Positions 53,682 to 62,632 of a DNA stretch of 64,000 nucleotides are shown here, piece by piece (positions within the stretch are counted from its first letter, which is position 1; every line of letters begins with the position of its first letter). A model generated the notes under the pieces. That model ran no database searches. It was not told where the DNA came from and saw only the letters and a list, made by a program, of their open reading frames with translations. The translations under genes and the position numbers were made by a program. This DNA is from an uncultured Flavobacteriaceae bacterium. Its GTDB lineage: Bacteria; Bacteroidota; Bacteroidia; Flavobacteriales; Flavobacteriaceae. The stretch is from NCBI GenBank assembly GCA_947500575.1, contig CANMSI010000001.1:310001-374000 (forward strand), given 5' to 3'.

Positions 53682-55655
53682 ATGAAAACATATATAAAAC
53701 TACCCCTTGCACTCTTCATTGCTCTCCTTAGTTTTTCCGTAGGATATGGGCAAGATAAGAACGAGAAAAAAGCAAACGAAAAATTTGATAACTACGCATA
53801 TGCAGATGCTATTGACACCTACGAACATTTAATAGAAAAAGGATATGATTCCGAGGAGATCTATAAGCGTTTAGGAAATGCCAATTATCTGAACGCCAAC
53901 TATAAAAAAGCAGCTGAATGGTACGGACGTCTTTTCGCAATTGAAAACGCAACCATAGATGCAGAATACCTATATAAATATGCGCAGACTTTAAAATCCT
54001 TAGAGAAGTATGATGCTTCAGATCAATGGATGCAGAAGTTTGAAGCAGCGAAGGCGCAAGACAAACGTGTGATGCAGTTTGCAAAGAATACAGACTACTT
54101 AGAAAAAATTAAAGAGCAATCTGGTAGGTACGACATTAAAAATCTGGCTATTAATTCTAGTGCATCCGATTTTGCTCCCTCCTTTTATGGAACACAACTA
54201 ATTTTTTCTACCGCAAGAGATACTGGAATTGTATCCCGAACTACGCACTTATGGAACAAAAAGCCTTTCTTAAATCTATTTGTTTCTGAGCCTTCAGAAA
54301 GTGGTGATTACACTACAAGCAGTAAATTTTCAAAGGTATTGAATACCAAAACTCATGAGTCTTCTGCCGTTTTTACCAAAGATGGAAATACAGTGTACTT
54401 TACTAGAAATAATTCCAAAAACAGAACTTTTGCACGTGATGCCGAAGGGGTAAGTAGGCTTAAAATATATAGAGCAAATTTACAAGATGGAGAATGGACC
54501 AATATAGTAGCATTGCCTTTTAATGGCGATGATTATTCTGTGGCGCACCCGGCACTTAGCCCGGATGAAACTATCCTTTATTTTTCTTCTGATATGCCGG
54601 GAACCACTGGCAAATCAGATATATTTAGCGTGTCTATTGGATCCGACGGTAATTTTGGAACTCCTATTAATCTTGGAGAAACCATTAATACAGAAGGTAG
54701 GGAAACATTTCCCTTTGTAACGGAGGCTAAGGTTTTATATTTTGCATCAGATGGCCACCCTGGTTTAGGCGGATTAGATGTGTATGCTACCAGATTGGAA
54801 GACATGGACGATCTCTACATTGTAAATGTTGGAGAACCTGTGAACAGTATAGAAGATGATTTCTCCTATGTAATTAATGAAGAGACTAGTAAAGGCTTTT
54901 TTGCAAGCAATAGAGACGGAGGAAAAGGAAGTGATGATATATATAGTTTTGTGCAAAATACACCTCCTGACTTAATTTGTAATACCCTGGTAAGTGGAAT
55001 TGTAAAAGATCAAGAAACAGCTGCTCCGTTAGAAGGCGCTAAAGTAGCTATATTTAACAGTGAAAGCGAAGTAGTCGCAGAAACAATTTCCAATGCTGAT
55101 GGTACGTTTAATTTAGAAGGAGATTGTAAAGAAGACTCTTATAAATTAGTTGTACTAAAAGATGAGTATGATGAAGGCAACGAGATGTTTACTACGGTAA
55201 ACGCCAATGATACAGAGGGGATAGAAGTAGCATTGGAACGCTCCATTAAAAGAGCAGCCATAGGAACCGATTTGGTACAATTCCTTGAGATAAATCCTGT
55301 TTATTTTGACTTAGATAAATCTAATATCCGTCCAGATGCGGAACAGACTTTAAGCAAAGTTATTGAATATCTTGCCGTCTTCCCAGACATGTACGTTCAA
55401 GTACAATCGCATACAGATGTAAGGGCAAGTACTAGCTATAATGAGCGCCTTTCTGATAGGAGAGCGAAAGAGACTGTAGCATATTTAATTGCCAAAGGAA
55501 TCGATACTAGTCGTATTAGTGGAAAAGGCTTTGGAGAAAGTCAATTAGTAAATGACTGTACTACAAGAGATAAATGTAGTGACGAACAACATCAACAAAA
55601 TCGTAGATCAGAATTTATTGTCATCACTAAGGAAGACGCCTCCCAAAATGAATAA
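53682..55655 (+). CDS. OmpA-family protein with TPR and PD40 domains (PorE-like)
   Basis: A 657-residue exported outer-membrane protein. Signal peptide ends near GYGQ. TPR-like helices are at about 25-115, PD40/WD40-like propeller strands at about 150-410 (SPDETILYFSSDMPG, TSKGFFASNRDGGKGSDDIY), a carboxypeptidase-regulatory-like beta domain at about 430-500, and the peptidoglycan-binding OmpA domain at 540-650 (NPVYFDLDKSNIRPDAEQTL to NRRSEFIV). This order matches PorE-type proteins that tie T9SS to peptidoglycan. It is 11 bases after the PorP/SprF gene, in the same operon, and a terminator follows. Confidence 0.9.
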   Translation: MKTYIKLPLALFIALLSFSVGYGQDKNEKKANEKFDNYAYADAIDTYEHLIEKGYDSEEIYKRLGNANYLNANYKKAAEWYGRLFAIENATIDAEYLYKYAQTLKSLEKYDASDQWMQKFEAAKAQDKRVMQFAKNTDYLEKIKEQSGRYDIKNLAINSSASDFAPSFYGTQLIFSTARDTGIVSRTTHLWNKKPFLNLFVSEPSESGDYTTSSKFSKVLNTKTHESSAVFTKDGNTVYFTRNNSKNRTFARDAEGVSRLKIYRANLQDGEWTNIVALPFNGDDYSVAHPALSPDETILYFSSDMPGTTGKSDIFSVSIGSDGNFGTPINLGETINTEGRETFPFVTEAKVLYFASDGHPGLGGLDVYATRLEDMDDLYIVNVGEPVNSIEDDFSYVINEETSKGFFASNRDGGKGSDDIYSFVQNTPPDLICNTLVSGIVKDQETAAPLEGAKVAIFNSESEVVAETISNADGTFNLEGDCKEDSYKLVVLKDEYDEGNEMFTTVNANDTEGIEVALERSIKRAAIGTDLVQFLEINPVYFDLDKSNIRPDAEQTLSKVIEYLAVFPDMYVQVQSHTDVRASTSYNERLSDRRAKETVAYLIAKGIDTSRISGKGFGESQLVNDCTTRDKCSDEQHQQNRRSEFIVITKEDASQNE

Positions 55656-55680
55656 AAAGTAAATACCAACCTAAATTTGA

Positions 55681-55716
55681 AAAAGGCTGTTCATTTCATA
55701 TGAATGGCCTTTTTTG
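55681..55716 (+). terminator. Terminator of the T9SS cassette
   Basis: A 10-bp stem with two wobble pairs, flanked by A and T tracts, with loop TTCAT, ends in six T. It lies 25 bases after the OmpA-family gene and separates it from the second PorP/SprF gene. Confidence 0.8.
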
Positions 55717-55809
55717 CTAAAATCCATATTCCAAACGCTTTACAATCGGATTCATTTCATTGGATAAATGAAATTAGAAATATCAATATTATAGCTTCAC
55801 ACATCATAT

Positions 55810-55825
55810 TTGTAGGAATTTACAA
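55810..55825. promoter_or_regulatory. Inverted repeat, possible regulator site
   Basis: TTGTA (55810-55814), GGAATT and TACAA (55821-55825) form an inverted repeat about 90 bases before the second PorP/SprF gene. A 14-base stretch (55806-55819) is the exact reverse complement of 48345-48358, in front of the T9SS substrate gene. No known regulator is assigned. Confidence 0.4.
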
Positions 55826-55915
55826 CAAAAATTGATTTAAAAATAAGAATTATCCCACTTTAGTGTTATTATCAAACATACGGTAGTTCCCATTTAAACC
55901 GACCTAATTTTTGTT

Positions 55916-56857
55916 ATGAAAAAGTTCTTTCTTGTTTTACTAATGAGTCTTATTTCATATGAAGCAGCCGTTGCACAACAAGACCCTCAATTTACGCAAT
56001 ATATGTATAATACTTTGGCGGTAAACCCAGCATATGCAGGTTCTAGAGGAGTTTTCAGTATTGCTGGACTCCATAGATCTCAATGGGCAGGTTTAGACGG
56101 TGCACCTAGTACACAAACGCTAAACTTTAATTCACCCGTTTCTGAAAGAATGGGAATTGGACTCTCTGTAATCAATGATGAAATAGGAAATAACACACGA
56201 CAAGAAACCTATATAGATGCCGCCTTTTCCTATTCAATTCCACTTTCTGCAAGGGGCGAGAAGTTATCATTTGGTCTAAAAGCGGGAGGACATCTTTTAA
56301 ATATAGATTTTTCTAAATTATCAGGTTTTTCAGAAGAGCAAAGCACAAATGGCTTGGTAAACATAGATAATAAATTCTCTCCCAATTTTGGAGCTGGCAT
56401 TTATTACCATACCAATACTTTTTATGCCGGCGTCTCTGTTCCTAATTTTTTAGAAACAGAACATTTTGACGAATCAGGAAGCGCTACTTCATATTTGGCG
56501 AGGGAACGAATTAATTATTATTTTATTTCTGGTTATGTATTTGACCTCAATAGGAATCTTAAATTTAAACCCGCGGTACTTTTTAAAATAGTAAGTGGTG
56601 CTCCATTGCAAGCAGATATATCTGCCAATTTTTTAATTAATAATCGATTTAGTTTAGGAGCAGCGTATCGTTGGGACGCTGCAGTAAGTGCTTTATTTGG
56701 ATTTCAACTATCAGATCAATTCATGTTAGGACTTGCATATGATAAAGAAACTACTCAACTTGGGAGTGCCGCTTTTAACAATGGTTCTTTTGAAGTGTTC
56801 TTGCGTTTTGAACTATTTAATCAAATTTCTAATGTAGTTACTCCTCGCTTTTTTTAA
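55916..56857 (+). CDS. PorP/SprF-family T9SS membrane protein (paralogue 2)
   Basis: A 313-residue beta-barrel protein with the same layout as the first PorP/SprF (signal peptide ending near AVAQ, QDPQFTQYMYNT, NPAYAGSRGVFS, AAYRWDAAVSALFGFQLSDQ, TPRFF at the end). The two share well over half their residues, so they are a duplication. This copy has no type B substrate gene next to it: a terminator separates it from the first cassette. Its partner substrate may be encoded elsewhere, perhaps the large secreted protein at the window's right edge. Confidence 0.92.
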   Translation: MKKFFLVLLMSLISYEAAVAQQDPQFTQYMYNTLAVNPAYAGSRGVFSIAGLHRSQWAGLDGAPSTQTLNFNSPVSERMGIGLSVINDEIGNNTRQETYIDAAFSYSIPLSARGEKLSFGLKAGGHLLNIDFSKLSGFSEEQSTNGLVNIDNKFSPNFGAGIYYHTNTFYAGVSVPNFLETEHFDESGSATSYLARERINYYFISGYVFDLNRNLKFKPAVLFKIVSGAPLQADISANFLINNRFSLGAAYRWDAAVSALFGFQLSDQFMLGLAYDKETTQLGSAAFNNGSFEVFLRFELFNQISNVVTPRFF

Positions 56858-58075: not shown

Positions 58076-58570
58076 ATGATTTATAAAATCAGGATCATAC
58101 TAGATGCTGAAGAAGATATCTTTAGAGATATGGAAATTGAAGCTAGCAACAGTCTCGAAGAATTCCATAATGCAATTACCCAAGCCTTTGGTTTTTTGGG
58201 AAATGAAATGGCTTCTTTCTATACCTGTGATGCGGAATGGAATCAGGATGAAGAAATTGCGCTTTTTGATATGAGTGAAAATGGCTCCAATGTTCGCTTA
58301 ATGAATGAAATTAAGTTGGAAGATATTATCACCACAAATACACCAAAACTCCTCTACGTATATGATTTTTTAAATATGTGGGCGTTCTTCATTGAATTGG
58401 CAGATGTGGTTGAAAAAGAAGATGGAAAAGCCTATCCTAATATTATATTTTCATTTGGGGAATTACCGGATGCGCCGCCAGAAAAAAAGTTTGAGGCAGA
58501 CCCATCTTTTGACTTTGATAATACGCTAGACAATTATGATGATCTAGACTTTGACGAGAATTGGAACTAA
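58076..58570 (+). CDS. Plasmid pRiA4b ORF-3-like protein
   Basis: A 164-residue acidic cytoplasmic protein. Its start, MIYKIRIILDAEEDIFRDMEIEASNSLEEFHNAITQAFGF, is the usual beginning of this family (also named after an IS1096 passenger gene), and LLYVYDFLNMWAFFIELADV matches the later LxYxYDFGDxW block in a diverged form. The C-terminus is a low-complexity acidic tail (FDFDNTLDNYDDLDFDENWN). The function is unknown. Despite the name, nothing here suggests a mobile element. Confidence 0.82.
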   Translation: MIYKIRIILDAEEDIFRDMEIEASNSLEEFHNAITQAFGFLGNEMASFYTCDAEWNQDEEIALFDMSENGSNVRLMNEIKLEDIITTNTPKLLYVYDFLNMWAFFIELADVVEKEDGKAYPNIIFSFGELPDAPPEKKFEADPSFDFDNTLDNYDDLDFDENWN

Positions 58571-58637
58571 AAAGCACTCAAGAAGCTTTTAATTTGTCTA
58601 TTACACTTTACTCAACACTAAATATTCAATACCATAC

Positions 58638-59696
58638 ATGATTAACCTCTACTCTACCCAAATTGAAAGCGTATCATTGCATCGCGTTGGAAATAAAAAT
58701 AAAGGAGAATCTGTTTTTTTATCAGACCAACCTCATCTATTAAATGATGAAACCAATGGTCTATTAAAAGAATATTTCTTTAAGCCATTTAGAGAAAAGG
58801 AAGAAAATTACTTTCGATTTGACCATGAAGTAGACATTGAATTTAATGAACTGTATAAGTTTGCTACTGAAATTTTCAATGATTCCGACAGCATCCACGC
58901 CAACTCTAAAAAAATTACAACGCATTTATTTGAACAATCAAATCATCCACATATTAAAAGTGGAGAGGTGTATGTAGCCTATTTGACTAATGTCTTATTA
59001 GACAATGTTAAAACCGATGCTATTGGCATTTTCAAAAGTGAATTAAAACACGACTTTATACAATTTGAGGAGAAAGGAAGTAATTTAGATTTGGTAATTC
59101 AGCAAGGAATTAACATCAATAAATTAGATAAAGGTTGCCTTATTTTTAATACAGACAAAGAAGAGGGATATAAAATACTTTCTGTAGATAGTAACCGCTA
59201 CGATACGAAATACTGGTTGGAAAATTTTCTGGGAGTAGATGCACTGGCTGATGAAAATTTTTATACCAAAAACTATTTGAAATTTTGCCAGAATTTTGCC
59301 AAAGATGTAGTACTTCCGGCAGAAGATAAACAACAAGAAGTGCTTTTCTTAAATAGGGCCGTAAATCATTTTGCCAAAAATGATGCCTTTGAAGAAACTA
59401 GCTTTTTAAATGAAGTAATGGACAATCCGGAGCTAATACCAGAGTTTAAACATTACAAAGTAGAAAAAGGACCTAAATACAGCATTGAAGATGTTTCCAA
59501 TTTTGATATTGCAAACAAAGCAGTTTCCGATGCGCGAAAGAAAATTAAAAACACCATCAATCTGGATACCAATATTCAGATAAAACTAGATTTCATTAAC
59601 CCAGAATCTGCTGAAAAATTTGTAGAAAAAGGATGGGATGAAGAGCGTCAAATGTATTATTACTTGGTGTATTTCAACAAAGAGCAAAAGAGTTAA
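58638..59696 (+). CDS. 37-kDa nucleoid-associated protein family (YejK/NdpA-like)
   Basis: A 352-residue cytoplasmic protein of the NA37 nucleoid-associated family. Typical parts are the N-terminal ESVSLHRVGNKNKGE, SGEVYVAYLTNVLLDN, AIGIFKSE and LDKGCLIFN. The family was named from its binding to the nucleoid in enterobacteria; its function is not well known. It stands alone, 67 bases after the previous gene, and is convergent with the kinase-like gene. Confidence 0.85.
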   Translation: MINLYSTQIESVSLHRVGNKNKGESVFLSDQPHLLNDETNGLLKEYFFKPFREKEENYFRFDHEVDIEFNELYKFATEIFNDSDSIHANSKKITTHLFEQSNHPHIKSGEVYVAYLTNVLLDNVKTDAIGIFKSELKHDFIQFEEKGSNLDLVIQQGININKLDKGCLIFNTDKEEGYKILSVDSNRYDTKYWLENFLGVDALADENFYTKNYLKFCQNFAKDVVLPAEDKQQEVLFLNRAVNHFAKNDAFEETSFLNEVMDNPELIPEFKHYKVEKGPKYSIEDVSNFDIANKAVSDARKKIKNTINLDTNIQIKLDFINPESAEKFVEKGWDEERQMYYYLVYFNKEQKS

Positions 59697-59700
59697 AAAT

Positions 59701-59715
59701 ACGCTGACTAAGCGT
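59701..59715 (-). terminator. Weak terminator of the kinase-like gene
   Basis: A 5-bp stem (ACGCT/AGCGT) with a five-base loop, followed on the minus strand by TATTTTTAA. It overlaps the minus-strand stop codon. Short stem, so moderate support only. Confidence 0.4.
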
Positions 59716-60790
59716 CAAAACGTTTCTCAATAATTTGTTTCATACTTACGTCTTCGTAGTTTCTTTTTACGAAATCTAGAGCCAATGTTAACACCTCTCC
59801 CATGGTGTTACATTTTTTAAATTGAGCATCCATAGTTAGCTCATAAATCTGCGCTTTTAAAAGTGCTACGTTTTCATCCAAAGAAATAACATCTTCCCTA
59901 CAAATGCTTACCAATTCTTCTATCCTGTTTTCTGAACTTATAATACGTTTGGCAACGATAGACCGTTCTTCTATTTTGTACTGATCAACAGAATCGTTCT
60001 GTAGCTTACTCTTAACGAGCTCTACCATTAAATAGTTTTCCTTAAAAAACTGAGGTCGGTATACCTTTAATTTGCCCTCAAAACACTGTTGATCAAAATC
60101 GATTGCCCTAATTTTATACACCACATGATCAAAATCGTGGGTAGGTACAATCACATAATTATACGAACGCATATCGCCTAGCAAACGTATCATACAACGT
60201 TCATTAAACTTCACAAACTCCTTTGCTAATTGTGCTTTTTCAGACTCAGAACATTTGGGCAACATTTCTTTGATAAAGACATCTCCTGGAATTCCTGCAA
60301 TATGTTCCTCTATTAACGTATTTTTATAGACCAAAAAGTTCAAATTATAGGGGGATAGCATATGTTCTAATTCCAATCCATACACTCTGGAAGCATCGGT
60401 CTTTTTAACATAGATATAAGTGAAGTTATCATTGAGAATATTTCGAACTCGAATGCGAAAAGGTTTCGAATTCCCAAAAGTGCAATAATCTACAGCATCA
60501 ATATTAAGGTATTGAATAATGCGATCGCTACCATCTGAATGTAAAATAGAATATACCTTTTTTAGACTTAAATCAATCTCCTCCCGCTCAAATTCGGAAT
60601 AATACACACGTACCCAAAGTGTGTCTTCTTCCTTCGAATCATACACTACAACAGAACCCGAAAAGCGTAAAAGATCTTCATAAAAAATGGGAATTTCAAT
60701 TTTTCTGCTGTATTGATCCAAATAAGCATCTAACCTGCTACTAATAGGATACGCAGGTTTTTTCTTGGACATTAATCGTTCAGACGTCAT
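59708..60790 (-). CDS. Unrecognised cytoplasmic protein with protein-kinase-like motif order
   Basis: A 360-residue soluble protein (or 354 from the ATG at 60772), with no signal peptide or span. I do not recognise its family. Its middle follows the order of a kinase fold: YIYVKK with K129/K130 where the VAIK lysine would be, GLELEHML with an acidic helix (E140/E142), a hinge-like LVYKNTLIEEHIAG, then GDMRSYN, where D206 and N211 are spaced as in the HRDxxxxN catalytic loop, and AIDFDQ (231-233) like DFG. No Gly-rich loop is obvious. A protein or small-molecule kinase, or a dead relative, is possible. The C-terminal 100 residues are helical. Divergent from the ABC genes. Confidence 0.6.
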   Translation of the reverse strand: MTSERLMSKKKPAYPISSRLDAYLDQYSRKIEIPIFYEDLLRFSGSVVVYDSKEEDTLWVRVYYSEFEREEIDLSLKKVYSILHSDGSDRIIQYLNIDAVDYCTFGNSKPFRIRVRNILNDNFTYIYVKKTDASRVYGLELEHMLSPYNLNFLVYKNTLIEEHIAGIPGDVFIKEMLPKCSESEKAQLAKEFVKFNERCMIRLLGDMRSYNYVIVPTHDFDHVVYKIRAIDFDQQCFEGKLKVYRPQFFKENYLMVELVKSKLQNDSVDQYKIEERSIVAKRIISSENRIEELVSICREDVISLDENVALLKAQIYELTMDAQFKKCNTMGEVLTLALDFVKRNYEDVSMKQIIEKRFDA

Positions 60791-60881
60791 ATAAATAAAC
60801 TTGAAATCAACTTATCTTGTAACAAATTACGGATTTACTCGTCAACTATACTATAGAACTAACACAAAAACGAATCGGACT

Positions 60882-61784
60882 TTGGAAACAATTCTAACGG
60901 TTAACAACCTCACCAAAAAATATGGGTATCTCACGGCAGTGAAAGACCTCTCTTTTACCATTGAAAAAGGAAATGTATACGGTATTCTAGGGCCTAACGG
61001 CAGCGGAAAATCAACCACGCTTGGTATTGTACTGAATGTGGTGAACAGAACGCTAGGAGATTTTCATTGGTTTGACGGAAATACAACAACCCATGACGCC
61101 CTTAAAAAAGTAGGCGCCATTATTGAGCGTCCTAATTTTTACCCATATATGACGGCTATCCAGAATTTAAAACTAGTTTGTAAAATTAAAGGGGTTGGTG
61201 CTGATAAGGTAGAGGAGAAATTACAATTGGTTGGGCTCTGGGAACGAAGAAATAGTAAATTCAAAACCTATTCCTTAGGTATGAAACAGCGTTTAGCAAT
61301 AGCTTCTGCGCTTTTAAATGATCCAGACATTCTAATCCTTGACGAACCTACCAATGGTTTAGATCCGCAGGGAATACATCAAATTAGAGAAATTATTAAA
61401 AAAATTGCTTCTCAAGGAACTACCATCTTACTGGCATCTCACTTGCTAGATGAGGTAGAGAAAGTTTGCAGTCATGTAATTATTCTGCGAAAAGGAGAAA
61501 AATTATATTCAGGTTCAGTAGATGGCATGTTAGCAAGTCATGGATTCTTTGAATTAAGTACAGAAAATAAAGAAGCACTTACCAGCTTCTTAAAATCGAA
61601 TCCTAAGTTTGGAGAAATTAAGGAAGAAAACAATCTCATTACAGCCTTTTTGAAGGAAGAAATGGATGCTGCAACCTTTAATAAACTCTTGTTTGATCAG
61701 GGCATTGTACTCTCGCATTTAGTAAAACGCAAAGAGAGTCTAGAAGAACAATTCCTAACCTTAACTAAAAACCAATCCAATTAA
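60882..61784 (+). CDS. ABC transporter ATP-binding protein
   Basis: A 300-residue ATPase subunit of an ABC-2-type exporter. Walker A is GPNGSGKST, the signature is YSLGMKQRLAIA, Walker B is ILILDEPTNGLDP and the switch His is LLASHLLDE. The TTG at 60882 gives the family start (METILTVNNLTKKYG); an upstream in-frame start at 60801 adds 27 residues with no match. The C-terminus carries the small regulatory domain usual for exporters. The permease gene follows after 14 bases. Confidence 0.9.
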   Translation: METILTVNNLTKKYGYLTAVKDLSFTIEKGNVYGILGPNGSGKSTTLGIVLNVVNRTLGDFHWFDGNTTTHDALKKVGAIIERPNFYPYMTAIQNLKLVCKIKGVGADKVEEKLQLVGLWERRNSKFKTYSLGMKQRLAIASALLNDPDILILDEPTNGLDPQGIHQIREIIKKIASQGTTILLASHLLDEVEKVCSHVIILRKGEKLYSGSVDGMLASHGFFELSTENKEALTSFLKSNPKFGEIKEENNLITAFLKEEMDAATFNKLLFDQGIVLSHLVKRKESLEEQFLTLTKNQSN

Positions 61785-61798
61785 TTTCGCACTTTCCT

Positions 61799-62632
61799 AT
61801 GAAACGTTTACTTCAAATAGAATTTATAAAACTTTGGAATAACAGGGCCAGTAAAATACTGATCATTGCGTATTTTATTTTACTAACCCTGATATCATTA
61901 GTAGCTGCTATCAAATTCGATATTGGTCCAATTAAATTTCACCTAGCAGAACTAGGGATTTTCAATTTCCCCTACATCTGGCACTTTAATGCATTTATTG
62001 CCGCTTTCTTTAAGCTATTTCTAGCCGTGGTTATTGTTTCCATGATGGCCAATGAATACAGTAATAAAACCATTAAACAGAATTTAATTGATGGGCTCAG
62101 TAAATGGGAGTTTATCTACTCAAAATTTTTAACGGTAATTGCCTTCTCCGCTATTTCAACAGTCTTTTTATTCCTTGTCTCTTTAATTTTAGGGCTAATT
62201 TATTCCGACTATAACGAACTTAGTATCATCTTCTCTGATCTAGAATATATATTAGCCTTTTTTGTAAAGTTATTGGGCTTCTTTTCTTTCTGTCTGTTCT
62301 TGGGAATCTTTGTAAAAAGATCTGCCTTTGCTTTAGGGTTTTTAATCCTATGGGCAATTTTCGAGCAATTTGTTTTTGGGATGCTAGGTTGGAAAGTTAC
62401 TTCTTGGGAAAATGCTTTAATTATAAAAGGTTTCTTCCCCTTAGAGGCTATGTCAAATCTGGTACACGAACCCTTTAGCAGACTCTCTGCCGTACAAAAT
62501 ATAGGAGAACAAATTGGGGAAAATCTAAAATTTGACTATGCAGTTCATTGGTATGATTTTGTCATTGTCTTATGTTGGACGGCGATTTTCATCTATTTAT
62601 CGTATGCATTGCTAAAAAAACGAGATTTATAG
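61799..62632 (+). CDS. ABC-2-type transporter permease
   Basis: A 277-residue membrane subunit with about six spans, partner of the ATPase encoded just upstream. It starts with the usual MKRLLQIEFIKLWNNRASKIL amphipathic segment. NEYSNKTIKQNLIDGLSKWEF is the family's coupling-like loop. ABC-2 exporters of this kind carry lipids, peptides or drugs; the substrate is not clear. Low hydrophilic content between spans means no extra domain. Confidence 0.85.
   Translation: MKRLLQIEFIKLWNNRASKILIIAYFILLTLISLVAAIKFDIGPIKFHLAELGIFNFPYIWHFNAFIAAFFKLFLAVVIVSMMANEYSNKTIKQNLIDGLSKWEFIYSKFLTVIAFSAISTVFLFLVSLILGLIYSDYNELSIIFSDLEYILAFFVKLLGFFSFCLFLGIFVKRSAFALGFLILWAIFEQFVFGMLGWKVTSWENALIIKGFFPLEAMSNLVHEPFSRLSAVQNIGEQIGENLKFDYAVHWYDFVIVLCWTAIFIYLSYALLKKRDL

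Follow-up and report, generated by a model that had tools for sequence, protein, structure and literature searches.

A Bacteroidota protein family with a predicted PKL kinase fold and invariant candidate active-site residues

A gene in the window, by which we mean the whole 64,000-nucleotide stretch of DNA analysed, encodes a protein that very probably has a PKL fold with an intact active site. We further consider it probable that the protein is a soluble ATP-dependent PKL phosphotransferase in a family of its own, and that its architecture is closest, among those compared, to the PI3K/PI4K/PIKK kinases. Here we describe the gene, its conservation, its distribution and its predicted fold. What is new is the family itself, and the fact that a gene widespread in a bacterial phylum resembles PI3K. 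A sequence-only reading of the same DNA had proposed a divergent kinase family. The proposal stands as a prediction of fold and active site, because D206, N211 and D231 are invariant and the model is two-lobed as it had expected.

Table 1. Positions in the window of the kinase-like gene, its predicted parts and its neighbours.
Feature	Position	Strand	Basis or remark
Kinase-like protein CDS	59708..60790	-	360 aa and stop; homologues align from residue 1-10 on
Alternative start, in-frame ATG at residue 7	60770-60772	-	
Predicted N-lobe core, residues 95-163, five strands and helix C	60302..60508	-	AlphaFold2 model mef7dded9819d
K129, ATP-lysine candidate, third N-lobe strand	60404..60406	-	165/165 homologues and model
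D132-x-x-R135, +3 and +6 from K129, like PI3K K-x-G-D-D-L-R	60386..60397	-	165/165 homologues
E140-L-E142, helix C, salt-bridge candidates for K129	60365..60373	-	E142 in 165/165 homologues; model
Hinge-like segment E161-x-H-I-x-G-I-P168, after strand 158-163	60287..60310	-	H163, G166 and P168 invariant, 34/34
Catalytic-loop candidate D206-M-R/H-S-x-N211	60158..60175	-	Alignments
Metal-binding motif candidate D231-F-D-Q234, in the DFG place	60089..60100	-	165/165 homologues
Predicted C-lobe, residues 164-348, mostly helical	59747..60301	-	Models; structural alignment
NA37-type nucleoid-associated protein	58638-59696	+	PF04245, E 6e-59; convergent with the kinase-like gene
ABC ATPase and ABC-2 permease	60801-62632	+	Divergent from the kinase-like gene

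The reading frame is open for 360 aa, and every residue that the sequence-only reading named is at the position given there. Table 1 lists the gene and its parts. The NA37-type gene lies on one side of it and the divergent ABC genes on the other. A scan for promoters gave only the background level (6 found against 5.6 expected). Three terminator-like sites were found against 0.6 expected, one of them at the stop codon of the kinase-like gene (59701-59715), and an Rfam search of 58500-61500 matched no RNA element. The listed start of the ABC ATPase (60801-61784) is a TTG at 60801, and homology to the ATPase domain begins only at residue 47; the gene therefore probably starts further downstream, which would lengthen the divergent promoter region. 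Directly upstream of the NA37 gene, a PRiA4_ORF3-like protein is encoded at 58076-58570 (PF07929, E 2e-18), an order that relatives often keep. An NA37 cluster occurs near the kinase-like gene in 52 of 120 loci and in none of the 28 distant ones. Also in the window, 53682-56857 encodes a type IX secretion-related pair, an OmpA/PD40 protein and then a PorP/SprF protein (PF11751, E 6e-90).

The protein belongs to no family in the collections that were searched. Its only row against Pfam is at chance level (E 0.14), it has no NCBIfam or PADLOC match, PHROGs gave weak chance-level rows only, and nothing in PDB was matched either by phmmer or by a 33-sequence profile. Nine diverse homologues likewise stay below every Pfam cut-off, so that in 10 family members no match was obtained to HipA (PF07804), APH (PF01636), DUF2252 (PF10009), UbiB/ABC1 (PF03109) or PF00454. 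The open-licence PMC literature yielded no description of the family. A gene of a mobile element, a phage or a defence system was considered and rejected, with 0 matches in 50,697 phage records, 72,556 plasmid records and IMG/VR, and none in PADLOC.

Within Bacteroidota the family is common. Among related genomes 56 of 99 have a match, 55 of them convincing (the match in G016 is a 50-residue fragment with a stop), and in the phylum-wide sample the count is 99 of 395, 98 of them convincing (G342 has a 43-residue fragment). Identity declines from 85% in the closest relatives to some 40% in other classes. The gene is nearly always single-copy, as it is in the window's own genome, and G188 is the sole genome of the phylum sample with two matches. 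Its second, more diverged copy, with 40% identity and the catalytic residues kept, is located at L075:5219-6322, in the same genome as L074. One homologue, in L071, appeared to carry an N-terminal extension of 258 residues; it overlaps bshA out of frame and was dismissed as an artefact.

Conservation was evaluated in 165 distinct sequences from 177 loci, a set that leans towards Flavobacteriaceae, and in 34 diverse members that cover several classes and give the same outcome; two further alignments consist of 33 sequences (A1) and 81 sequences (A2, the window protein and named genomes). It was found that K129, D132, R135, E142, G205, D206, N211, D231, F232, D233 and Q234 are identical in 165/165 homologues, and the catalytic residues are likewise invariant in 81/81 and 33/33 of the smaller sets. 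Conservation of D206, N211 and D231 had been set as a test beforehand, and these three never vary. The active-site lysine had been left between K129 and K130. Position 130 is Lys in only 119 of the 165, while K129 is fixed, and the lysine is therefore K129. Position 140 is Glu in 161 homologues, Asp in 3 and Ala in 1, and position 208 is Arg in 151 and His in 14; the catalytic-loop candidate reads GDMRSYN in the window protein and GDMHSGN in other classes. As had been noticed, there is no glycine-rich loop: GxGxxG is absent and the family holds F-G-N-[ST]-x-P-F-R in its place.

For the motif-register comparison, ungapped 18-residue catalytic-loop profiles, one for each of five kinase-like families, were scored at every register of the family profile, with column-shuffled profiles as the null. 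The best register is D206 for four of the five, namely PI3K (4/1000 shuffles as good; 1/1000 in a first run), DUF2252 (1/1000), APH (30/1000) and ABC1 (51/1000). The HipA profile, built from one usable sequence, falls on residue 119, where 360/1000 shuffles are as good. The PI3K HIDFG segment puts its Asp best at D231 (34/1000), and with the PI3K lysine segment K129 ranks only third, a result that is not significant since 790/1000 shuffles beat the top score. Judged at the level of sequence, the order and spacing of the motifs exceed chance, in agreement with the kinase-like order originally read from the letters. The PI3K profile consists of 4 human sequences only. For the other families, the protein of each locus was the longest frame between stops across its middle; one HipA entry (66 aa) was clearly wrong, and two APH entries had 759-768 aa; after a regular-expression filter 16/20 ABC1, 16/18 APH, 1/10 HipA and 4/4 DUF2252 sequences were usable.

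A profile search had also been put forward as decisive. With hhalign and a limited profile set, no family gave a significant whole-domain match. The best score, 29.4 (1/60 shuffles as good), belongs to ABC1/UbiB, whose alignment of 165 columns runs in order across the hinge, the catalytic loop and the DFD motif. PI3K scored 20.5 (3/60 shuffles as good), and the other kinase-like families, at 18.5 to 20.3, are at background level.

The full-length AlphaFold2 model, built on 81 sequences, is two-lobed (pLDDT 83.4, pTM 0.82), which agrees with the fold that had been anticipated. Its predicted N-lobe has strands at 95-103, 111-117 and 122-130, the last carrying K129, then a helix at 133-145 that bears both E140 and E142, the residues earlier assigned to an acidic helix, and strands at 152-155 and 158-163. 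Helices follow at 169-179 and 182-206, the latter ending at D206, then a hairpin at 210-219/222-231 that ends at D231, and helices up to 348. In this model D206-N211 follows helix E and D231 comes after the next hairpin, and the elements as a whole are in the order of a kinase. A second model, of a trimmed Aquimarina intermedia homologue, has the same order of elements (pLDDT 81.3, pTM 0.74); both models were built on the same 81 homologues and are therefore not fully independent. Confidence is lowest at the active site. In the full-length model the mean pLDDT is 71 for residues 201-210 and 67 for residues 231-240, and in the trimmed model residues 203-207 and 233-247 are below 50. Because both models lose confidence around the catalytic loop and past the DFD motif, the geometry of the active site is a prediction only.

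Two signs of a PKL kinase are thus combined in the family with a fold that is two-lobed in both models. One is a conserved Lys on what the model places as strand 3 of the N-lobe, with an acidic residue on helix C (K129 and E142); the other is a catalytic-type Asp with an Asn five residues on, followed by an Asp-Phe of the metal-binding type (D206, N211, D231 and F232, 165/165).

In Foldseek's own ranking all listed rows are kinases, protein kinases coming first and the TYK2 JH2 pseudokinases giving the best raw matches of the full model, with poor superpositions (TM 0.27, rmsd about 15). Searching a library of viral structures similarly gave nearly all protein kinases, poorly superposed. Structural re-alignment covered Foldseek's 1000 best chains only. 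The 50 entries shown for the full model are without exception PI3K or PI4K, led by VPS34 (Z 11.2, rmsd 4.9, 274 residues aligned) and including PI4K-III-beta (Z 9.7), and 59 of the 1000 chains reach a Z of 8 or more. For the trimmed model, the first 17 rows hold PI3K or mTOR structures exclusively (Z 8.0-10.3, 214-229 residues aligned), which span residues 1-261, the full domain, whereas the other rows, among them CDK6, SIK3, the JAK2 pseudokinase and the bacterial PKL kinase WaaP (Z 7.0), have a Z of at most 7.1 and cover 137-181 residues. A Z of 10-11 is moderate, and with that grade and this limited list of candidates both models are consistent with a PI3K-type fold. The comparison with kinase, HipA and APH folds that had been suggested came out kinase-like, with a resemblance, among the chains re-aligned, to PI3K/PI4K/PIKK rather than to HipA or APH; structures of HipA, APH, UbiB and DUF2252 are absent from the rows shown for both models and may fall outside the 1000 re-aligned chains.

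The likeness to the PI3K group extends beyond the predicted fold. Both share the IDF motif, the lack of GxGxxG and a D-x-[RH]-x-x-N loop, the Asn being five residues from the Asp in all four PI3K-group kinases too. The spacing of Lys, Asp at +3 and Arg at +6 is common to VPS34, PI4K-III-beta and p110-alpha, and mTOR has Glu at +3. According to a passage in PMC4702295, PI3K conserves an Arg or His in the catalytic loop, and residue 208 of the family (R or H) would be its counterpart. On the other hand, the distance from the Lys to the catalytic Asp is 77 residues in the window protein against 107-151 in the four PI3K-group kinases, and that between the two Asp residues (D206-D231) is 25 against 18-19, i.e., 6-7 longer. 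Met replaces the Arg of DRH and Asp the Gly of DFG, giving D-M-[RH]-x-x-N and D-F-D instead. There is no significant sequence match to PI3K/PI4K (PF00454), and the host is a bacterium without inositol synthase. Given the missing PF00454 match and the motif differences, the protein would work like a PI3K but cannot be classed as one. From eukaryotic-type protein kinases (PF00069) it differs in having no GxGxxG, no HRD and no Pfam match, with FGN[ST]xPFR and LGD[MQ][RH] in the family.

It is possible, if on the unlikely side, that the protein is a PKL kinase nearer to UbiB/ABC1 or to another bacterial PKL family (DUF2252, APH, KdoK), and that it looks like PI3K only because its N-lobe is compact, its activation segment short and its C-lobe helical. 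The ABC1 hhalign score points this way, as does the choice of D206 by the DUF2252 and ABC1 catalytic loops, and many bacterial PKL structures may be outside the re-aligned chains. UbiB/ABC1/ADCK nevertheless gave an alignment that is not significant, its Asp-x-His-Pro-Gly-Asn loop is not kept, and the window protein has no counterpart of the insert that PMC1821047 describes between strand 3 and helix C of UbiB. DUF2252 shares the loop (G-D-x-H-x-x-N-F against G-D-M-[RH]-x-x-N-[FY] in the family), but only 20 columns align; its lobes are flipped, as a section of PMC9758233 has it. HipA and APH are of the PKL superfamily and the APH loop register is D206, but that of HipA is off D206. None of these families was matched in Pfam by the 10 members, and against all of them stands the PI3K group, which has the top Z in both models and covers the whole domain in the trimmed one. 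A pseudokinase, or an ATP-binding scaffold that regulates a partner without phosphate transfer, would explain the missing Gly-rich loop, the DFD in place of DFG and the rank of TYK2 JH2 in the raw Foldseek matches. We regard it as quite improbable: pseudokinases typically lose some of the catalytic positions, while here all are invariant in 165/165 homologues, and PI3Ks are also without GxGxxG.

The genomic context bears on the possible substrate. The gene had been described as standing alone and facing an ABC exporter, which holds here and is common in Flavobacteriaceae, where the divergent layout is usual, but does not hold in distant loci: among 120 loci examined, 69 have an ABC ATPase cluster close by, and of the 28 distant ones none has. 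This neighbourhood looks like inherited gene order, and since the exporter is absent from the distant loci it is no evidence for function. Of 11 loci from the phylum's other classes, 9, representing 7 families, have bshA as the gene immediately upstream, on the same strand, and the three bshA neighbours that were scanned are far above the TIGR03999 (NCBIfam) cut-off. In three such loci (L060, L064 and L090) the pair of bshA and the kinase-like gene is flanked by a GloB-like metallo-beta-lactamase and LptF/LptG-like permeases. Bacteroidetes make bacillithiol and N-methyl-bacillithiol, as stated in a portion of PMC6282198. The adjacency is a clue to bacillithiol metabolism, the only one that the context gives, and not proof of it. 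That the enzyme acts on bacillithiol or a precursor, in the pathway starting with BshA, seems to us unlikely, as bshA is adjacent in none of the 17 same-class or same-order loci and bacillithiol synthesis is not known to include a kinase step. All 99 genomes of the phylum sample with a family match also have a BshC match, but so do 384 of the 395 genomes (Fisher P 0.07, kinship uncorrected), and most genomes with BshC have no kinase-like gene; BshC being nearly universal in the sample, its co-occurrence is uninformative. A true phosphatidylinositol kinase, as in eukaryotes, is very improbable in spite of the resemblance of the predicted fold to VPS34 and p110. PF00454 exceeds its cut-off in 0 of 118 sampled Bacteroidota genomes. 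A search for inositol-1-phosphate synthase (PF01658) that matched 6 of 14 control genomes, a Bacteroides among them, had no match in the window's genome and a single one among 99 relatives (G047, completeness 82, contamination 6). Without this synthase the cell is unlikely to make an inositol lipid of its own, inositol uptake being the other possible source, and a literal phosphatidylinositol kinase becomes improbable on this ground.

For the reading that we prefer, a PKL phosphotransferase with PI3K-like architecture, we infer ATP binding, catalysis and the class of substrate as follows. ATP-Mg would bind between the two lobes, with the backbone near residues 163-168 as the hinge. K129, paired with E142 (or E140) of helix C, would hold the alpha and beta phosphates, and N211 and D231 the magnesium ions. 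D206 may act as the catalytic base that activates a substrate hydroxyl, assisted by R208 (H208 in other classes), which would take the position of the His in the Asp-Arg-His of PI3Ks. One specific substrate is probably recognised by the invariant stretch that follows Asp-Phe-Asp (Q234, Y244, N252). This substrate is most likely a cytosolic metabolite, small and hydroxylated, or else a lipid head group, and probably not phosphatidylinositol.

PI3K appears among the eukaryotic-specific families recognised only by structure in the part of Kannan et al. 2007 (PMC1821047) that lists them. Tentatively, this widespread, single-copy and probably old gene of Bacteroidota might be a bacterial sister lineage of PI3K/PIKK with a non-inositol substrate, perhaps linked to bacillithiol, which would suggest that the PI3K fold has a prokaryotic root; we think this idea rather doubtful. 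A kinase that is conserved through much of a major phylum, and for which Pfam and NCBIfam have no model, would add a family to the PKL kinases, probably one with an undescribed substrate. If its resemblance to PI3K reflects common descent, the family would also bear on the origin of the PI3K and PIKK kinases.
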